Below are positions 5,843 through 55,428 of a stretch of 64,000 bases of DNA, piece after piece. Under the pieces are notes generated by a model. That model searched no databases. It saw nothing but the letters and a program-made list of their open reading frames with translations, and had not been told where the DNA came from. The stretch's first letter is position 1, and each line of letters opens with the position of its first letter. Source of the stretch: Cohnella cholangitidis (lineage in GTDB: Bacteria; Bacillota; Bacilli; Paenibacillales; Paenibacillaceae); NCBI RefSeq assembly GCF_014107495.1, contig NZ_CP041969.1:1485001-1549000 (forward strand), written 5' to 3'. The position numbers and the translations under genes are program-made.

Positions 5843-7277
5843 TTATGCATTTAAGCGCTCCACCAGAAGCTTGTTCACAAGCCCCGGGTTCGCTTTGCCC
5901 TTCGTTTCTTTCATGATTTGTCCGACAAGGAAGCCGATCGCCTTCTCTTTGCCGTTACGGAAATCTTCGACCGATTGCGGATTGGCGGCAATGACGGCGT
6001 CGACGATCGAGAGAATGGCGCCTTCGTCGCTAATTTGCACGAGCCCCTGCTCTTCGACGATTTGTTGCGGCGATTTCCCCGTTTCGATCAGGCCTTTGAA
6101 TACCGTTTTGGCGATTTTCGTACTGATCGTACCTTTCTCGATTAGCTGAATCATCTCGCCCAAACCTTGGCCGGTAATCTTAACGTCGCCGAGCTCCAAG
6201 TTATTGGCGTTCAAATAACCGAGCAAATCTCCCATGATCCAGTTAGCGGACGCTTTCGCATCGCTAGTATGCTTCAAGCTCTCCTCGAAGAAATCCGCAA
6301 GCTTCATGGATGCGGTCAGGACGCCGGCATCGTAAGACGATAAGCCGTATTGCTGGATGTACCGCGCTTGCCGCGCATCCGGCAATTCCGGAATCGAAGC
6401 CCGAACCCTGGCTTTCCACTCGGCGTCGATATGTAGGCGAACGAGATCCGGATCAGGGAAATAACGATAATCATGCGCCTCTTCTTTGCCGCGCATGCTG
6501 ATCGTTTTTCCTTGCGCCTCGTCCCACCGACGCGTCTCTTGCACGACCGTGCCGCCGCTGTCGAGCACATCCGCTTGACGCAGCTCCTCGTACTCGAGAC
6601 CGCGCTGAACGCCCCGGAAGGAGTTCATATTTTTCAATTCCGCGCGGGTTCCGAACTTCTCTTGCCCGTATGGACGAATACTAATGTTGGCGTCGCAACG
6701 CAGGCTGCCTTCTTCCATCTTCACGTCTGAGACGTCGATAATATTGCATGATGGCTCTTAGTTTCTCCAGATAAGCTTTCGCTTCTTCCGGGGAACGGAT
6801 GTCCGGCTCGGATACGATCTCGACAAGCGGCGTTCCGACGCGGTTTAAATCGACTAAGGAACCATAGCCCCCTTCGATATGCGTCAGCTTGCCGGCGTCC
6901 TCCTCCAAGTGAAGGCGAGTGATGCCGATCCGTTTCGTTTGGCCGTTCACCTCGATGTCGATCCAACCGTTCTGTCCGATCGGTTGGTCGTATTGCGAAA
7001 TTTGGTAGGCTTTGGGCGAATCGGGATAAAAATAGTTTTTACGGTCGAATTTGCACCATTCCGCGATTTCGCAGTTGATCGCCATCGCGGCCTTCATCGC
7101 GTATTCTACCGCTTGACGGTTAAGGACTGGCAATACTCCGGGATGGCCTAAGCATACCGGACATGTGTGCGTGTTGGGCGGCGCGCCGAAAGAAGTCGAG
7201 CACCCGCAGAAAATTTTCGATTTCGTATGCAGTTCGACGTGTACCTCAAGGCCGACGACCGTTTCATATTTGGACAT
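5843..7277 (-). pseudogene. gatB: Asp/Glu-tRNA amidotransferase subunit B (frameshifted in this sequence)
   Basis: The kinase-like and tail subunit of GatCAB, which converts Glu-tRNA(Gln) (and Asp-tRNA(Asn)) to the amidated form. Frame one (7277-6681) begins [19 protein letters not shown] and runs to AIMQY; frame two (6724 to 5843) continues [24 protein letters not shown] and DYRYFPDPD and ends in the YqeY-like tail. One extra base near 6735-6741 separates the two parts; dropping it restores [16 protein letters not shown], the expected family sequence. The restored protein is about 477 aa, normal for GatB. Bacilli lack GlnRS and need this enzyme, so a true disruption is unlikely and a sequence indel is the better reading. 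It is the last gene of gatC-gatA-gatB. Confidence 0.93.
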
Positions 7278-9205: not shown

Positions 9206-10282
9206 ATGCCCCGTTACCATAGCGCGATAAGTTCCGCTCCATTAAGGGATTACGGGCTCGTAGAATTCGCGGCGGACGATCCGGCAATTCTTGAAACCTT
9301 ATATGAAGCGATAAAAGAATGCACATCTTCGCATAACGATAAGCCTTCTCTTACGCTACGCTACGACGATCAACGGCCGCTGCTTAAGCTGATGAGCAAG
9401 CTGCAGAGGAAAATAGAGACTCCGGAAGCTCAGAAAGTGCAATGTCGGATCTCGTACGACAGCGATGATTCGGAATCGGAAGAAGCAAGCATCGAGAACG
9501 ATAAAGCCGGTTGGATCGCGTTGTCCGAGTTATTCGGCGAAGTCGGCGGACGGAGCGTCTCCGATTATATTTTGTATCGGTTGTTCACGACTTATTTGCA
9601 GCCTATCGTACAGCCGAGCGGCAATATTGTCGGCTATGAATTTTTGCTGCGTCCGTTGCCGGAACAACCGCCGTTTCGCCCGGCGGAGCTATTCCGCACC
9701 GCCAGAAGAATCGGGCAACACGCTTATTTGGATAGAGCCGCCAGACATTCGGCGATTCGGCTGGGGGCATCGCATTTGCCGTCCGGCATGAAGCGATTCG
9801 TCAATTTCCTCCCCTCTTCCTTGCATCAGCCGGCCGCTTGCCTCAAAGGCACGTTCGAGACGATCAAGGAATCCGGCACCGACCCGCGGGATTACGTATT
9901 CGAAGTGATGGAGTCCGAGCCGCTTGACGACCCTAGATTAAAAAGCGTTTTTGACGCGTATCGCAACGAAGGGGTAAATCTTGCTTTAGACGACGTTGGC
10001 GCGGGGTTTGCGACTTTGGATATCGTGGACCGGTTACAGCCCGACTACGTCAAAATGGACCGAAGATGGGTCAGCCAATGCGACGCGGACCCGAAGAAAC
10101 AGCGATATATCGACCGGCTGCTGGAACGCGTTTCCCGGTTTCACGGCGTTGTTCTGGCCGAAGGCGTGGAACGGCAAGAGGAATGGGATTACCTGAAAAA
10201 TGCAGGCGTCCCTCTGTTTCAAGGCTATTTGTTCGGACGGGCGATGCCGGTTCCTAGCGAAACGGCGGTCGGAGTCAATTAA
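9206..10282 (+). CDS. EAL-domain protein, likely cyclic-di-GMP phosphodiesterase
   Basis: A 358-aa soluble protein. Residues 1-120 form an unrecognised N-terminal region with an acidic stretch near 84-94; residues about 125-350 are an EAL domain. The name motif reads EFL (145-147). The catalytic set otherwise looks complete: Asn200, Glu233, Asp262-Asp263 in the DDxGxG loop (DDVGAGFAT), Lys283, Glu319 and Gln339. Most metal and substrate ligands are therefore present and hydrolysis of c-di-GMP to pGpG is plausible, though the Phe substitution and changed loop leave a binding-only role possible. There is no membrane segment or signal peptide. The ribosome binding site AAGGAGG is strong. A terminator follows, so it is probably monocistronic. 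It is one of three c-di-GMP genes in the window. Confidence 0.85.
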   Translation: MPRYHSAISSAPLRDYGLVEFAADDPAILETLYEAIKECTSSHNDKPSLTLRYDDQRPLLKLMSKLQRKIETPEAQKVQCRISYDSDDSESEEASIENDKAGWIALSELFGEVGGRSVSDYILYRLFTTYLQPIVQPSGNIVGYEFLLRPLPEQPPFRPAELFRTARRIGQHAYLDRAARHSAIRLGASHLPSGMKRFVNFLPSSLHQPAACLKGTFETIKESGTDPRDYVFEVMESEPLDDPRLKSVFDAYRNEGVNLALDDVGAGFATLDIVDRLQPDYVKMDRRWVSQCDADPKKQRYIDRLLERVSRFHGVVLAEGVERQEEWDYLKNAGVPLFQGYLFGRAMPVPSETAVGVN

Positions 10283-25082: not shown

Positions 25083-25217
25083 GAAATCACTCCTTTGCCG
25101 CTTTTGCTTCATTGTATGTGGCAAACGAGCCGCGCATCACGGACATCCCCCCATCCGCTCGTCCATTTTCCCCCGAATCCGCGCTTGTCCGAACGATTCT
25201 CCGCGTAAACAAATAAA

Positions 25218-25236
25218 CAGGCCTGTATAAGGCCTG
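25218..25236 (-). terminator. Short terminator downstream of the PilZ gene
   Basis: Arms CAGGCC and GGCCTG around a 7-base loop; on the minus strand the stem is followed by a T-rich stretch. It lies 25 bases after the PilZ stop. The rest of the gap 25083-25260 holds no recognised feature. Confidence 0.55.
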
Positions 25237-25260
25237 CCGAGTAATCGTTATTGTCCGGAG

Positions 25261-25976
25261 TTAACCGTTACCGCTGCCGAAGGAGCGTTTTTTTCCTAAA
25301 TCCCGCCGCGTTTGAGCATGCTTCTCCACCTGTTGTCGCAAGATCAGAGCTCTGAGCGGACGGAGCATTTCCGGCTCAAGCACTTGCATTTTGGCTCCCC
25401 AGTGCAAGCGATCCTCTTGTCTCTCCCGACGGACGATTTCCAACTCGCAGTTAAAGTCGAAGCCGATCTCCACTTTCGCCTTCAATCGAGATTTCGTCAC
25501 CAAATGAGGAGCGTCTTGTCCGGAAAAGCTAATACCCGCGATGCTAATATCATGAATCGTGAGGGCAACCGATTGATCTAACGCAAGCTCTTCGCCCGAG
25601 TCGCTTAACACATGAAAAATATGGGCATTTCCGTTAATTTCCACTCGCGGGTGCTCGCGTCTCTCTTTGAAACGCTTCTGCACCTCTGGCGGTTGAAGCA
25701 ATGCGATCGCGCTTCGTATTTCGCAAAGACGATCGAAGGCATGGATTGGATGCCGGCAGGCGAATATACGGTCAGCTTCACGGTTTCCCCTAGCTCGAAC
25801 TGATCGAATTCAGGAAGCTCTACTTCGAAGAGTTCCCCTTCCACATGGGTCATCACGCCGGTCGTAACGAAATTTTTGCCTTCCACGACGGTCCGGCAAT
25901 GGAGCAGCACGTTTAACGGAAGCAAATCCTTGTCCAACTCGGACAGCATGACTTTATTGTCCCCGGCTTGAGTCAT
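25261..25976 (-). pseudogene. PilZ-domain c-di-GMP receptor (frameshifted in this sequence)
   Basis: Two frames (25976 to 25605, and 25701 to 25261) make one protein of about 238 aa when one base is added near 25708-25715. The N-terminal half is a YcgR-N/flagellar-brake-like beta domain (GVMTHVEGELFEVELPEF, KLTVYSPAGIQSMPSIVFAKYE). The C-terminal half has the PilZ signature: RxxxR in KERREHPRVEI and DxSxxG in IHDISIAGISFSG. These residues bind c-di-GMP in the family. Location just downstream of a c-di-GMP riboswitch and after a diguanylate cyclase gene makes a c-di-GMP effector likely. In the family such proteins act on flagellar motors or exopolysaccharide systems. No flagellar gene is visible in the window. 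The reading-frame break looks like a missing base. Confidence 0.82.
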
Positions 25977-26012
25977 CCCGCCAAACCACCTTTCTAGCGT
26001 CCTGATTGATAG

Positions 26013-26044
26013 AAAACAGACTGCCTCCCATTGGAAGCAGCCTG
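26013..26044 (-). terminator. Expression-platform terminator of the c-di-GMP riboswitch
   Basis: On the minus strand a 12-bp stem (arms CAGGCTGCTTCC and GGAGGCAGTCTG, with two G-U pairs, AATG loop) is followed by TTTT. It lies about 15 bases after the aptamer and 40 bases before the PilZ start, the normal place for transcription control by this riboswitch class. Confidence 0.8.
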
Positions 26045-26057
26045 ATTCGCCTGAATA

Positions 26058-26165
26058 GCCCTCGCGGAACCTTCGGCAGCCAGGCTGTCATCGTTCGCGA
26101 GAACATTAGACCCTGTGGCTTTGCGTCCTTGCTTTTCAGCAAGTTTGCCCTTAACGAAAACGTTT
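26058..26165 (-). promoter_or_regulatory. Cyclic-di-GMP-I (GEMM-I) riboswitch
   Basis: The minus strand carries the aptamer hallmarks in order: AGGGCAAAC (26151-26143), a stem closed by a GAAA tetraloop (TTGCT-GAAA-AGCAA), GGACGCAAAGCC, GGGTCTAA as the tetraloop receptor side, a small hairpin, then GATGACAGCCTGGCTGCCGA, which closes the second helix. These are the conserved elements of the c-di-GMP-I class, including the ligand-binding A and C positions. It is in the 5' leader of the PilZ gene and directly after the diguanylate cyclase gene. A following terminator indicates transcription attenuation; whether c-di-GMP turns it on or off cannot be read directly. Confidence 0.92.
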
Positions 26166-26240
26166 CAACTGGTAAGATTGTACCATATTACGAGTTAACG
26201 CGACATCTATTTCTCTATGATCCGATCAAAAAAATCCTCG

Positions 26241-27899
26241 TTATCGCGCCATGACGACACGGTTGCGACCGTCGTTCTTCGCTTTATACAAAGCCGAGTC
26301 CGCGCTTGAGAATACCTCTCGCAAATACTCCTTCGGATCTTCGAATCTAAGCTCTTCGCTAGATTCCGATAACACGCCCATGCTTATCGTAACATGTACT
26401 TTTTCCGACCCGGTATCCACCCAATTGTCTCCGACCGCCAGCATAATCCGTTCAGCCAATAGTTCGGCTTGCTCGCGATTCGTATGCGGCAAATAAATCG
26501 TAAACTCTTCTCCGCCGTATCTGGCCAATATATCGGTTCGTCTAAGCTTCGAACGGACAATATCGGCCGTACTGCGAATGACTTCATCTCCCACGAGATG
26601 ACCGTATTTGTCGTTAATTTGTTTGAAATGGTCGATATCGAACAGGAAAATCGCAAACGGAATTTGATATCTCATGTTGAGCAGCACTTCGTGCTCCAAT
26701 TGCTGCATTAAATACCTGCGATTAAAGCAGCCCGTCAGCCCGTCCGTCACGGCCATTTGCTCAAGCTTCTGGTTAACTCTGAACAGCTCTTCCTGGATCG
26801 TGATCAATTCCAAATTCCGCTCATGCAAAGCTTCGTTCTTGCGGTTCATTTCAACGACGAGTTTACGCAGCTCCGACACGTCATGGAAAGTGATAATACG
26901 GCCAAGCAGCGTCTTCCTGTCATCGAGCACCGGCGATATTTGAATGGATACATGCTTCCCCGAGTTTTCCTGCAACGAAAATTCCATTTGCATTTTCTCG
27001 TAGGGATGATGGTTATAACGATATAGAAACTCGTATACTTCCCCCTGCGCCTGCAGAGGAGCTAGAAACTTCTCCATTTCGAAAGATTCGCCCTTGGACA
27101 ATTGAACGAACGGCGACGAGCCCTTGTTCACTTCAAGCACTTTGCCGTTCTCGTCCACTACGATCACTCCGGTTGTCATATGCTCGAAGATGTCCCTCTG
27201 GGCCATGCTTAAGATATCGAAGATTCCGAAACGGTATATCGCAATGACGAAGCATAAGTCGGACAGTAAAATTCCAAGCGCCAGCAATCCCGGTATGACG
27301 GGCAGCCATTGAGCCAGCAATACGTTGACGAGAACGTCAAGAAGGCCGAACCCGGTCAGAACGAACATCCCGATTAAAGCGGTTGCAAGTTGTTTGCTCT
27401 GATTCAAGGATTTGACAGTCTTGAGGGCGTGGAACATATTCATCAAAGCCGTGAAGAAATACGCAAACTGTATAAGCACGAGCAACCAGAACAAGGGACC
27501 GTAATCACGATCCAAATAATTGCCCCCTACCGGCGACATAAACAAGTTCTCCGGGTTCCAAAGAGCTCCGACTACGCAAAGGGAGGCCGGGAAAATATAG
27601 AGAAGAATCCGGCTTACCTTCAGATGCGCGGCTCGTCCGGTAAGGAAAAAAACGAAGAGAAGCCAGCCCGGTCCCAGCATTCCCATCGCTACGAAAGAGA
27701 TATTAATGAAAAACAGTTGAACATCGGTAAAATCCGTCAATTTGACGGCGAATTGACCTAGCGGCCATAGCATCATAACAAAATGAAAAGCCAAATACAC
27801 TTTATGGGTCTGGGTAATTCTATTAAACGCAATCACGCTTACAAATAGAATAAAAAGCATAATGAACAACGTAAAATCAGTCCATTGAAAATCCAACAC
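26241..27899 (-). CDS. Membrane diguanylate cyclase (7TM-PAS-GGDEF)
   Basis: About 552 aa (554 from the upstream GTG). Residues 1-220 hold seven or eight transmembrane helices like the histidine-kinase 7TM sensor module; then a PAS domain (about 235-350, IVVDENGKVLEVN), a coiled coil, and a GGDEF domain (about 390-554). The active site is GGEEF (464-468) and an inhibitory RxxD (455-458) lies five residues upstream, so product feedback inhibition is likely. It makes c-di-GMP from two GTP at the inner membrane. The start is uncertain: GTG at 27899 fits AAAAGG better than 27905. It is the gene just upstream of the c-di-GMP riboswitch and PilZ gene. Confidence 0.92.
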   Translation of the reverse strand: MLDFQWTDFTLFIMLFILFVSVIAFNRITQTHKVYLAFHFVMMLWPLGQFAVKLTDFTDVQLFFINISFVAMGMLGPGWLLFVFFLTGRAAHLKVSRILLYIFPASLCVVGALWNPENLFMSPVGGNYLDRDYGPLFWLLVLIQFAYFFTALMNMFHALKTVKSLNQSKQLATALIGMFVLTGFGLLDVLVNVLLAQWLPVIPGLLALGILLSDLCFVIAIYRFGIFDILSMAQRDIFEHMTTGVIVVDENGKVLEVNKGSSPFVQLSKGESFEMEKFLAPLQAQGEVYEFLYRYNHHPYEKMQMEFSLQENSGKHVSIQISPVLDDRKTLLGRIITFHDVSELRKLVVEMNRKNEALHERNLELITIQEELFRVNQKLEQMAVTDGLTGCFNRRYLMQQLEHEVLLNMRYQIPFAIFLFDIDHFKQINDKYGHLVGDEVIRSTADIVRSKLRRTDILARYGGEEFTIYLPHTNREQAELLAERIMLAVGDNWVDTGSEKVHVTISMGVLSESSEELRFEDPKEYLREVFSSADSALYKAKNDGRNRVVMAR

Positions 27900-28068
27900 A
27901 TTCACCTTTTCACAAAAGGACTTTATTTAAAATAATGGATGTTCATGTTTGATTTTACCATATCGCCGATTTTTTCGACAACCATTATGCCCGCAATAGT
28001 CGGATTTTTATGCTTTTTTAGGTGATTTCAAGGACTTTTTTACTTGGTTTTTGTGACCTTTGGCATAT

Positions 28069-31710: not shown

Positions 31711-33735
31711 TCATCTTTCTTTCCATTTAAATTTTCTTAACGATTCCTGCAGCACCGCGGATAAGGAATCCAATTTCTCCGCCAATGCAACGAGTTTCTC
31801 TCCCACGTTCTTTTGCTCCATGCTAAGGGACGCTACCTCTTCGGAAGTAGCCGATGATTGCTGGGCAACCGCGCTGACATTCGCCATCGCTCCCGCGAGC
31901 TCGCCCTGGTTGATTTCAAGCTCGTTGATCGAATGGGCTACTTCATCGAGGTTCGCCGTAAATCCTTCCACCTGCTCCCTTACTTGTACGAAGATCGTGT
32001 CGGCTTCCTTGACCGCAACGATCTGCTGGCTGAAAATCGGAAGCGCCGCGGATAACAACGCGACGGTTTCATCCATTTCCGTCTGGATCTTCTCCGTGAT
32101 ATGCCCCACGACCAGGATGGATTGCTTGGATTGGTCCGCGAGCGTACGTATTTCATCGGCAACGACCATAAACCCTTTGCCCGCGCTCCCTGCGCGCGCC
32201 GCCTCAATGGTCGCGTTCAAGGACAAGATATTCGTCTGATTCGCCACGTTATTCAGTAAAGCGAGGATTTGGCGGATAGATTGGGTACTTTCCTTAAGCA
32301 TATCTATCTTCTCCGTCATCGAACGCGTTAATCGTTCATTCGAATTCGTTCGCTCGATCAGTTCCTCCATATATTGAATTCCTTGATTACTGGCGTATTG
32401 CACCTCTCTAGCGGATGTCCCTATCTCCTCTTTGGCGGCCATTACTCTCCTTACTTGGAGTCCGATCGAGCCGGTCAGCTCATTCCCTTTCTCCGCTCCG
32501 TTCGCAAGGTTCATCGCCCCTCCTGCTATTTCTTCGGTTGCAGTCGCAATCTCCTTTGCGGATTGGGCGGTATATCTGGCAGCTTCCGTCAATTTCTCCG
32601 ATGTCTCGAGCACTTCTCTAGCCGACAGCGTCGCGTTTCCTACCAGATCGCCGATGTTGCCGATCATTTCGTTAAAGCTTGTCGCGAGCTGTCCAATCTC
32701 GTCCGACCGATTCATATTCATTCGAACGGACAAGTTCCCTTGAGCTCCTTCTTTCATCAAGCGGCTCGCTTGATTCAGCGGTTTCCCGATCAGCAGGATG
32801 ACCAGATAACCGATCCCCGAAGCCGCAATAACCGCGATAATGATCATTAAAACCGTGATTTGCGCGATTCTCCGGGCATCTTTATGCAGTTCCTCCAAAG
32901 GCACGGTGCCAATGGAATACCATCCCGTGCTTGTAAGTTGCTGCATGACGACCCGAACGCCCTTGCCGGCATCTACGTCGTCATATTGCTGCCCGGCTTG
33001 CCCGGAAGGATTCGAGAGAGGAGAGGCTTCCCCGAGCAGCTCGGGATTCTCGTTATAGATATAACGGCCGTCCTCGTTCAGAATGTAGCGGTTCCCGCCT
33101 TCTCCCATATTCACGTTACCCATTAATTCCTCTAAAGGCCCCGTCCTGAACTCCAGAACCAATACGGTAGGTTTCGAGCCGGCCGCCGCGCTTTTGATTA
33201 AGCGTCCCAAAGCGAAACCGCTGCTCCCGCCCTTATTGATATATCCGGACTTGGAGGTTTCCAACCATGCTATTCCGCCGTCCGCTTCGGCAATGCGGGC
33301 AAACCAATCCGGAACCGAAGACATCATTGCCGTATTCGTGGATGCGATCTCCGTTCCGTCTTCCTCATAGAACCCATAAGCGGAAATTTGATTGTGGATA
33401 AAGGGAGATGCGCTGTCAAGGAGTCGAGAAGAAGCCTCAACGGCTGCTTCCCCTCCCTTTTCCGATTCATAATAGAGTTGCAGGGAATCCCTGATGCGCA
33501 GATCGTTATCCAACTGCGCGGAAAGGTCCGCAAGCCTCGCGAAGAACAGATCCAGCTTCTGTCCGGTTTGAACGATCGTTTGGAGCGATGCATCGGATAC
33601 CTTCTTCTCTATCGTGTTTTTCGAAATCACGTAGGAGGTGGTCCCCGTCACCCCGACAAAAAACAAGAGGCTCACGAAAATGATGAGAAAAAGCTTCATT
33701 CCGACCGATTTGATCCTAACCGATATTTTCGCCAA
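31711..33735 (-). CDS. Transmembrane methyl-accepting chemotaxis protein
   Basis: A 674-aa chemoreceptor. Two transmembrane segments (about 12-34 and 280-303) bracket an external Cache-type sensor domain. A HAMP domain follows (about 305-357, NQASRLMKEGAQGNLSVRM), then the cytoplasmic signalling domain with the hairpin tip LNATIEAARAGSAGKGFMVVADEIRTLADQS. The ligand is not predictable. There is no chemotaxis operon beside it. It lies upstream of the GH43 gene's downstream end on the same strand but is not obviously coupled (56-base gap). Confidence 0.92.
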   Translation of the reverse strand: MAKISVRIKSVGMKLFLIIFVSLLFFVGVTGTTSYVISKNTIEKKVSDASLQTIVQTGQKLDLFFARLADLSAQLDNDLRIRDSLQLYYESEKGGEAAVEASSRLLDSASPFIHNQISAYGFYEEDGTEIASTNTAMMSSVPDWFARIAEADGGIAWLETSKSGYINKGGSSGFALGRLIKSAAAGSKPTVLVLEFRTGPLEELMGNVNMGEGGNRYILNEDGRYIYNENPELLGEASPLSNPSGQAGQQYDDVDAGKGVRVVMQQLTSTGWYSIGTVPLEELHKDARRIAQITVLMIIIAVIAASGIGYLVILLIGKPLNQASRLMKEGAQGNLSVRMNMNRSDEIGQLATSFNEMIGNIGDLVGNATLSAREVLETSEKLTEAARYTAQSAKEIATATEEIAGGAMNLANGAEKGNELTGSIGLQVRRVMAAKEEIGTSAREVQYASNQGIQYMEELIERTNSNERLTRSMTEKIDMLKESTQSIRQILALLNNVANQTNILSLNATIEAARAGSAGKGFMVVADEIRTLADQSKQSILVVGHITEKIQTEMDETVALLSAALPIFSQQIVAVKEADTIFVQVREQVEGFTANLDEVAHSINELEINQGELAGAMANVSAVAQQSSATSEEVASLSMEQKNVGEKLVALAEKLDSLSAVLQESLRKFKWKER

Positions 33736-53156: not shown

Positions 53157-54950
53157 CTAGAAACCCCAGCTAGGCAACCATCTGATCGCGACGTTCATCC
53201 ACTCGCGGCTCACCGTCATGCCCGTATAGATCGGATAGAACCAAACAAGCAACGCCGCCGCCACGCCCGTGAAAGCCATCGTTACCCAACGTCCCTTGTA
53301 ACTACGCTCCTCGAACCAGCGCAGCATCCACACGATGGATAAGATCAAGAGCGGCACCATAGGAAAATAATGATACAGGAACGTAATGCTTCGCGGAGCC
53401 ACCATCCATGGAACGTAGAAGGATAAGTATGCGACCGCAAGCGTGAGCACGACTCTGTCCCTTCTCCGGAAGCCGAGCCACCAGGACGCTAGCATCGCCA
53501 GCAATCCGCCCCACCAGATCAGAGGATTTCCGATCGCCGCGATGCTTTGGGCATCGCCATTCTCTAAATCCTTGCCCCCGTAATACCATACCGGCCTGAT
53601 CATCAATGGCCAAGTGTACCATTTCGAAGCATAAGGATGAGGTTCTTTGACGCCTTTATGGTAATGGTACATGTTTTTCTGATATTGCCATAAATCTTTA
53701 TAGCTATCATCTGCTTTGGTCGCTTGAATATACGGTTTATAGGAAGCCGTATATACTCCGACGGGTACGGCGACGAATAAAATGACGCACGCCATCAGCG
53801 TCAAGACTAAACGTCTCACGTAATCGTAATCCCCTGCCATCTTCCCTTCCCGCCAGCGGCGGACGAGAGCGAAGACAAGCAGGATCGCTAGTCCGGCCCC
53901 TCCGTACAAGTAGTTCCATTTGACGGCGGCGGCGGCGCCGAAGAAAAACCCGCTGAGCGCAAGATAACCGATGCTTCGCCGAAACCCTCCGTTGCGCCAT
54001 GCGGTTTCGCCGTATCGATACATGCCGTAGAACATAATGATCGTAAAAGTGACCCCGATAATATCCACGTTCGAGGAACGGGAGTGCACGAGATGGAAAC
54101 CTTCCAGCACGAGCAACAATGCCGCAAGGAACGCGTATCTCGTCCGTTGGAACATCCCCTTGGCCGCGGCGTAGAGCACTGGAACCATCAAAGTCCCGAA
54201 CACTCCGGCCATGAACCTCCAACCGTAAGGAGTCATATCGAACATTTTCACGCCGATAGCCAGAAGCACTTTGCCTAACGGCGGATGCGTATTCTCGTAA
54301 GGCTCCATCCGTTCGATGAATTCGTACGCGGTACGTCCATGGTAGATCTCGTCGAAATACATGCCGTTCCGGTAATCCGGCCGATATGGCGCGTACTCCT
54401 GCTCGTCGAATACTTCCAGCCCGCTGCCTTCGGAAGTTAATGAATTATTGCTGTCGGATTGAACGTTCATCACGGCGATCGGAGCGTAAATCCCGGTCGT
54501 GAAAAAGCCCGCTTCGTAGAGACGGTATCCCGTCGTCTCCGTCGTAAACCGCATATACCTCGCTTTAACCGATTTCTCGTCGAGCTTCCAGGTGAATACG
54601 CGGTTCGTTTTGTGTTCCACTTCTAAATAGTCTTCCCAAGATACGCCATCTATCGAGGATTCGATTTTCGTATTGCCCTTCGCTCCCGGACCCTCGTATA
54701 GATTGATCCTGTCGACCGTCCGCGTCTCCCCGAAATCGACGGTGAAGTTGTCCCCTGCTTTATCGGGTTTCCAGAATGTCTGAGGAGCCGAGCGGTCGCC
54801 AAGATCCGTAAACGTCATTAGAGCCGATACGATCGTCAATAACAATACCAAAACAATATCTAGCGGCCTCCACCGCCGATCTTCCCGGTTACGAACGGAA
54901 GTTGCTCCCCATTGCACCGGACCGGATCTGCTTGTTTCCTTGTAATCCAT
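53157..54950 (-). CDS. PMT-family (GT39-like) glycosyltransferase with discoidin-like F5/8C insert
   Basis: A 597-aa integral-membrane protein. After a cytoplasmic start and the first transmembrane helix (about 37-55), residues about 65-180 form an F5/8-type-C/discoidin-like domain (TVDFGETRTVDRINLYEG, KARYMRFTTETTGYRLYEAGFF). A PMT core follows with FDEIYHGRTAYEF and NTHPPLGKVLLAIGVKMF, the loop carrying the catalytic acidic residues, then about ten more helices. PMTs transfer sugars from polyprenyl-phosphate donors to protein or glycan outside the membrane. The start at 54950 has GAGGAC upstream. It pairs with the downstream GT2 gene. Confidence 0.85.
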   Translation of the reverse strand: MDYKETSRSGPVQWGATSVRNREDRRWRPLDIVLVLLLTIVSALMTFTDLGDRSAPQTFWKPDKAGDNFTVDFGETRTVDRINLYEGPGAKGNTKIESSIDGVSWEDYLEVEHKTNRVFTWKLDEKSVKARYMRFTTETTGYRLYEAGFFTTGIYAPIAVMNVQSDSNNSLTSEGSGLEVFDEQEYAPYRPDYRNGMYFDEIYHGRTAYEFIERMEPYENTHPPLGKVLLAIGVKMFDMTPYGWRFMAGVFGTLMVPVLYAAAKGMFQRTRYAFLAALLLVLEGFHLVHSRSSNVDIIGVTFTIIMFYGMYRYGETAWRNGGFRRSIGYLALSGFFFGAAAAVKWNYLYGGAGLAILLVFALVRRWREGKMAGDYDYVRRLVLTLMACVILFVAVPVGVYTASYKPYIQATKADDSYKDLWQYQKNMYHYHKGVKEPHPYASKWYTWPLMIRPVWYYGGKDLENGDAQSIAAIGNPLIWWGGLLAMLASWWLGFRRRDRVVLTLAVAYLSFYVPWMVAPRSITFLYHYFPMVPLLILSIVWMLRWFEERSYKGRWVTMAFTGVAAALLVWFYPIYTGMTVSREWMNVAIRWLPSWGF

Positions 54951-55031
54951 GTCCGTCCTCGCTTTCACGCATTTTCCACATTTTTGCCTGTCCCTATTGT
55001 AGTCGAAAGCGTTACCGGATGGAAAGAGTCC

Positions 55032-55056
55032 GTTTCATTTTGCCGGATAAGGGTTA
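55032..55056 (+). promoter_or_regulatory. Sigma-B-type promoter of the YtxH-like gene
   Basis: GTTTCA (55032-55037) and GGGTTA (55051-55056) are 13 bases apart, close to the sigma-B consensus GTTTAA/GGGTAT, and 42 bases upstream of the start. YtxH-type genes are sigma-B targets in B. subtilis, which supports the call. Confidence 0.75.
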
Positions 55057-55098
55057 ATTCTCAGCAAGGACGTATTCCATGACGAGGAGGAAATGACA

Positions 55099-55428
55099 AT
55101 GGCAGACACACGTGGAACGATAAAAGGAGCTTTAATCGGAGGGGTAATCGGAGCGACGGCGGCACTTCTTCTCGCGCCCAAATCGGGCCGCGAATTGCGA
55201 GGCGACATTCGCGACAAGTACGCTTCCGTTCAAGATCGCACGAAACGGTTGATGACGGACGCGGGACACAAAACCCAGGAAATCGCCGCGCAAGTCGGGC
55301 AAACCGCCTCGGGCATTATGGACAAGACGCGATCCGCCTTATCCGCCGCCAAAGAGGAAGTGCAAAATTGGAAGGACGAACATTCCGATGGCAAGGACGA
55401 ACGGAAGCACGACGGTAAAATGAACTAG
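55099..55428 (+). CDS. YtxH-domain general stress protein
   Basis: A 109-aa protein from the ATG at 55099 (GAGGAGG eight bases upstream). The glycine-rich GALIGGVIGATAALLLAPKSGRELR is the YtxH signature with one membrane-associated helix; the tail is helical and highly charged, ending in Lys/Asp/His-rich sequence. YtxH proteins are stress-induced in Bacilli; the mechanism is not known. A sigma-B-type promoter precedes it. Confidence 0.87.
   Translation: MADTRGTIKGALIGGVIGATAALLLAPKSGRELRGDIRDKYASVQDRTKRLMTDAGHKTQEIAAQVGQTASGIMDKTRSALSAAKEEVQNWKDEHSDGKDERKHDGKMN

Follow-up and report, generated by a model that had tools for sequence, protein, structure and literature searches.

In C. difficile, the seven functional class I c-di-GMP riboswitches are reported to be OFF switches (PMC6366702), and in one OFF switch of this species, Cd1, the terminator is described as compatible with the aptamer, with the strand logic that is predicted here for most Cohnella leaders (PMC9262584). 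According to the same account, ON forms with near-identical aptamers exist, and in the ON form the terminator and the aptamer are mutually exclusive (PMC9262584). Furthermore, position 20 of the c-di-GMP-I aptamer has been tied to the choice of c-di-GMP rather than c-AMP-GMP (PMC10333796). In the titles and the beginnings of abstracts of the open-access literature, neither a report of a c-di-GMP riboswitch ahead of a PilZ gene nor any c-di-GMP work on Cohnella was recognised; with this scope, an earlier report is possible. The locus described here lies in a 64-kb stretch of a Cohnella genome (the window). We read it, with a probability of roughly 0.7, as an OFF switch: a c-di-GMP-I riboswitch that probably has a promoter of its own and controls a YcgR/MotI-like PilZ gene through transcription termination, the break in the PilZ frame being a likely assembly error. 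The locus is real and well conserved, and all of its parts are of known kinds; of note are the loop's sign and the occurrence of the riboswitch-PilZ pairing in several families.

The cyclase gene, the aptamer and the PilZ gene all lie on the minus strand (Table 1), and the order given in the earlier note, cyclase to riboswitch to PilZ on the transcribed strand, was borne out. The proposal that 2.7 kb encode the synthesis of one molecule, an RNA sensor for it and a protein that binds it is likewise supported at the level of sequence. The motifs named in that note were found as described; however, it had overlooked a break in the PilZ frame.

Table 1. Features of the locus, in window coordinates.
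Feature	Position	Strand	Basis
Membrane diguanylate cyclase, HisKA_7TM + PAS + GGDEF	26241..27905	-	ORF, Pfam, 14-protein alignment
Extended -10 promoter-like element TGGTACAAT, just 5' of the aptamer	26177..26185	-	Motif scan
c-di-GMP-I riboswitch aptamer	26072..26159	-	Rfam RF01051, 86.1 bits
Intrinsic terminator, 5' arm CAGGCTGCTTCC	26017..26044	-	Sequence, folding
Ribosome binding site region AGAAAGGTGG, ahead of the ATG at 25976	25986..25995	-	Sequence
PilZ gene, 5' piece (N-terminal domain)	25605..25976	-	ORF; C. mopanensis similarity as far as ~25713
PilZ gene, 3' piece, different frame (PilZ domain)	25261..25701	-	ORF, Pfam; C. mopanensis similarity from ~25710
Terminator-like hairpin 3' of the PilZ gene	25216..25238	-	Terminator scan

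The gene directly upstream encodes a predicted membrane diguanylate cyclase of 554 aa, as had been claimed: its three domains were recognised by Pfam, and its GGEEF motif is preceded, five residues before, by an intact RxxD I-site (RRTD). This RxxD is kept in 13 of 14 aligned cyclase proteins, the protein of locus L059 being the only one without it. The closest relatives of the cyclase are those of C. mopanensis (93%) and C. luojiensis (89%), on which the assignment to Cohnella rests. Among the 25 NCBIfam matches listed, only general GGDEF and PAS domain models scored above their cut-offs.

In a search of the whole window, the aptamer was the sole place above an Rfam gathering score. The match scores 86.1 bits (gathering score 35; E 1.3e-15) and covers model positions 1-87 of 87. 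The covariance search agrees with the earlier description of a clear c-di-GMP-I riboswitch. By its sequence the aptamer is unambiguously a c-di-GMP-I riboswitch, and it is predicted to bind c-di-GMP. At what we take to be the ligand-choice position, 33 of the 34 aptamers checked carry G, the window's among them. The aptamer of C. kolymensis (L025/L060) has A there, and the adjoining cyclase has at least two breaks.

The leader also contains the elements expected on either side of the aptamer in this reading. The extended -10 pattern TGnTAnnnT was found in 24 of 26 Cohnella leaders, compared with a rate of 0.119 in shuffles, and begins 15-45 nt 5' of the aptamer (one locus has an extra match at 7 nt). 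The element in the window was absent from the list produced by a sigma-70 scan, there being no good -35. The riboswitch probably has this putative promoter of its own. On the other side of the aptamer, the terminator consists of a 12-bp stem followed by the tail TTTTCTATCA; the 3.1-kb region has 8 terminator-like sites, and 3.6 would be expected from shuffles. In all 26 Cohnella leaders the terminator stem starts 21-65 nt 3' of the aptamer and has no strand in common with it, and therefore aptamer and terminator can coexist. The terminator 5' arm, mostly AGGCTGCTTCC among Cohnella leaders, is in the window (CAGGCTGCTTCC) also complementary to aptamer strands, which makes it a candidate antiterminator strand. 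Control of the PilZ gene by the riboswitch, another claim made from the sequence, is well supported by this anatomy and by the conservation described below.

The downstream gene is read in two overlapping frames (Table 1), with the break near 25,71x. The 3' piece contains a PilZ domain (Pfam, 29.0 bits against a cut-off of 22.5) with both RxxxR and DxSxxG present; the N-terminal piece had no Pfam match. The R...R motif was found in 42 of 42 proteins and [DN].S..G in 41 of the 42; locus L147 gave no match and does not enter this count. A sequence search of the PDB with the PilZ protein returned nothing at E 0.1. When the C. mopanensis protein was represented by its AlphaFold model (pLDDT 82, pTM 0.71), matches were obtained to MrkH, B. 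subtilis MotI/DgrA and YcgR at E 1e-8 to 9e-7. The TM score for the two domains together was about 0.4, which may reflect a different orientation of one domain to the other. The gene is predicted to encode a two-domain receptor of the YcgR/MotI kind; a MotI-like brake on flagella would be a guess.

In C. mopanensis a single frame of 237 aa spans both PilZ pieces, and the frame is open in all 25 of the other riboswitch-bearing Cohnella loci, 24 of them with 228-270 aa and one (L042) with 199 aa running to the contig end. A programmed frameshift was ruled out, since these relatives read straight through. When C. mopanensis frames of at least 120 aa, some of which are perhaps not genes, were used as queries, 8 of 100 were split in this assembly, while the control run in the opposite direction had 2 of 109 split. 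Of the 59 frames compared in the window 3 were split, and of the 41 in the 100 kb beyond it 5 were, at 4 places; some of these splits, including that at 54906-55425, lie near a start and may reflect only a longer upstream frame. The reverse control gave 2 of 60 and 0 of 49, both splits being near a start. Because of this excess over the reverse control, the break in the PilZ frame is most likely an assembly error in an indel-prone assembly.

The single-copy gatB gene (5846-7277, minus strand) is also in two frames, with 96-97% identity to C. mopanensis on both sides of the split. It had been considered as proof of assembly error, but this argument is weakened by the presence of a GlnRS gene, and the two-way comparison of frames was used instead. 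With that gene present, the cell may be able to do without gatB, and a real break in PilZ is conceivable. The module would then have decayed: PilZ would be a genuine pseudogene in the strain, leaving the riboswitch nothing to control, as the break itself would allow. We regard such decay as unlikely, because similar breaks occur elsewhere in the same assembly, gatB included, with few in the reverse control, and because the leader and both PilZ pieces are still well conserved.

The sign of the switch was examined from the folding of the leaders. Among 20 leaders with an 88-nt aptamer, compared with the energy of the ligand left out and tertiary structure ignored, the fold in which the terminator arm pairs upstream beat the fold with aptamer plus terminator in 18 of 19 usable leaders. 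The exception was L033; L036 was void because its fixed structure was out of register. In the best alternative fold, the aptamer's 3' strand is the arm's main partner in 18 of the 20 leaders; in the window's leader and L037 the arm pairs elsewhere in the aptamer. The antiterminator pairing was better than in shuffles (at most 15 of 300 as good, both ways) in 12 of 26 Cohnella leaders. For the window's leader, 19 and 24 of 300 shuffles were as good, beyond that limit. The OFF reading is supported less strongly by this leader than by those of its relatives. Swapped pairs of aptamer and platform were as good as cognate pairs (p 0.46), giving no covariation proof of the antiterminator. The pairing energy of platforms with aptamer 3' strands was about -20 kcal/mol in Cohnella and about -12 to -14 kcal/mol at six loci from other families. 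Arm-aptamer pairing was weak in the leaders of a second family of the order. It was uneven in 14 terminator-bearing leaders of the order: at 6 of them no more than 10 of 200 shuffles did as well (none at L168 and L175), and at the other 8 this limit was exceeded.

The alternative is an ON switch, in which binding of c-di-GMP blocks termination and the receptor rises with its ligand in a coherent loop. To make a receptor in the presence of its ligand is intuitive, and near-identical aptamers serve ON forms (PMC9262584). An ON switch is nevertheless improbable here: in each of the 26 Cohnella leaders the terminator lies 21-65 nt beyond the aptamer and is built from separate strands, whereas terminator and aptamer are described as exclusive in the ON form (PMC9262584). 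The anatomy is like that of Cd1 and therefore predicts an OFF switch, such that high c-di-GMP should lower the receptor. If the riboswitch works as a switch at all, OFF is in our estimation quite probably its sign.

Conservation was examined first within the genus. Of 60 genomes, 38 have a relative of the PilZ protein; 30 of these are among the 37 genomes of Cohnella. A c-di-GMP-I or c-di-GMP-I-GGC aptamer lies upstream of PilZ at 26 of these 30 Cohnella loci, and none was found upstream at the other four (L018, L031, L032 and L035). The cyclase is also upstream of PilZ at 26 of 30 loci; at the remaining four (L030, L036, L038 and L040) the one GGDEF gene in the examined flank is a second, smaller membrane gene (~230 aa). 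Weak GGDEF matches at these four loci had suggested replacement by a non-orthologous cyclase, an idea that was dropped when the matches proved to be this second gene. In several species the small gene lies between cyclase and riboswitch: in L053 (5693-6376; Pfam, run on L053 only), and also in L027, L029, L030, L036, L038, L040 and L041.

In C. phaseoli (L049) the cyclase stop is ~20 bp from the PilZ start and the ribosome binding site is kept, which indicates that the cassette of promoter, aptamer and terminator is missing. L018 and L049 are presumably the same species, to judge from identical PilZ figures. The PilZ tree groups L018 with L019, a sister that has the riboswitch (support 100/99), and the loss of the riboswitch in L018 was therefore probably recent. 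The presence and absence of the riboswitch require at least 4-5 changes on this tree, in which deep joins are unsure and several branches are long.

As a separate observation on the window, the ~12 kb at ~31.7-43.6 kb have no counterpart at the same place in the Cohnella loci L043, L045, L046 and L048, whose matches jump from 31.6 kb to 43.6-43.8 kb. A chemoreceptor-like gene (31711-33735) lies within this stretch.

Outside Cohnella, the protein was found in 6 of 8 genomes of the second family, with an aptamer at all 6 loci, and other families of the order had an aptamer at 2 of 6 loci. The PilZ protein alignment matched 105 of 246 genomes of the order, and at the 27 highest-scoring further non-Cohnella loci among these an aptamer was found on the PilZ strand in 21, L173 being weak (Rfam, used on 20 of the loci, was positive at 15; a model built from 31 aptamers, used on all 27, at 21). 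Together these sets give 21 + 6 + 2, or 29, riboswitch loci outside Cohnella. At 28 of the 29, tblastn with three GGDEF proteins found no GGDEF gene in the examined flank; the exception, L143, has a GGDEF-EAL gene. Conversely, L059 (39% identity) and L167 (42%), both from outside the genus, have the cyclase beside PilZ but lack a riboswitch. Both pairings therefore occur outside Cohnella, and a late arrival of the cyclase in Cohnella was not upheld. Among the loci examined, the full three-part order was found only in Cohnella. Riboswitch and PilZ form a wider unit than the three-part arrangement.

The earlier note had seen in the locus a self-contained circuit, in which the adjacent cyclase feeds its own riboswitch and PilZ protein and an EAL gene at 9206 could close the loop. 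The adjacency of cyclase and PilZ at most Cohnella loci, the small GGDEF gene at the other four, and the pairing of cyclase and PilZ in L059 and L167 speak for such a circuit. However, the genome has 17 GGDEF, 10 EAL and 6 PilZ matches, with 6 aptamers spread over 5 places. These numbers of GGDEF and EAL matches speak against a closed circuit with this cyclase as the exclusive source, as does the lack of a GGDEF gene at nearly all riboswitch-PilZ loci outside the genus. The EAL gene is encoded on the other strand at a distance of 16 kb, and nothing was found that links it to the locus. We therefore give little credence to a closed circuit. The GGDEF and EAL proteins of the genome presumably act on a shared pool of c-di-GMP, and the local loop is one node of a wider network. 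That the cyclase product sets the level of its own effector is plausible, with a sign that is predicted to be negative because the switch is read as OFF.

In the EAL protein encoded at 9206-10282 (plus strand), EFL and DDVGAG were read by eye at the sites for which we take the reference motifs to be EAL and DDFGxG, respectively. At 2.667 Mb (L127), another c-di-GMP-I riboswitch precedes a FapA-like gene and an HD-domain gene, and it is a nearer candidate than the EAL gene for feedback through c-di-GMP breakdown. Tandem c-di-GMP-I aptamers precede a transglutaminase-like gene at 5.828 Mb (L130), beyond which lie polysaccharide genes and a PilZ-glycosyltransferase-like gene. The other aptamer sites are ahead of a chemoreceptor and a large surface protein; these labels, like those of the transglutaminase-like and polysaccharide genes, were given by eye from translations.

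For the OFF switch that we favour, the following mechanism is proposed. When no ligand is present, the 5' arm of the terminator would pair with strands of the aptamer as an antiterminator, and the PilZ gene would be read; when c-di-GMP is bound, the aptamer would hold those strands, the terminator would form and the PilZ gene would be off. Here one ligand has two receptors, and the RNA one apparently regulates the protein one; such an arrangement would amount to negative feedback, or an incoherent feed-forward loop, on the supply of receptor. Cells low in c-di-GMP would stock the PilZ receptor, and cells high in c-di-GMP would stop its production. The membrane cyclase would probably belong to the same unit in Cohnella, yet be one of many sources of c-di-GMP. 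Conserved in several families, such control would point to a cell that tunes its own sensitivity to c-di-GMP as well as its outputs. A broader proposal, which we offer tentatively and rate at somewhat under even odds, is that several families of one order have kept an RNA receptor before the gene of a MotI/YcgR-type receptor, that a supply inverse to the ligand serves adaptation, and that a membrane cyclase is joined to this pair in Cohnella.

Taken together, each part of the locus can be placed beside a described system. The cyclase has the HisKA_7TM, PAS and GGDEF domains and the I-site of 7TM-PAS GGDEF diguanylate cyclases. The PilZ protein has in common with YcgR, MotI (DgrA) and MrkH an N-terminal barrel followed by a PilZ domain, the RxxxR and [DN]xSxxG motifs and a match in fold, but it differs from them in sequence, no PDB entry matching at E 0.1, and its function in Cohnella is putative. 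With Cd1, the riboswitch has in common the c-di-GMP-I (GEMM-I) aptamer family, an aptamer-compatible terminator and, as a candidate feature, an alternative pairing between aptamer strands and a terminator arm; switching in Cohnella is predicted. Lastly, Cd1 controls a flagellar operon, whereas the Cohnella riboswitch precedes the gene of a PilZ receptor.
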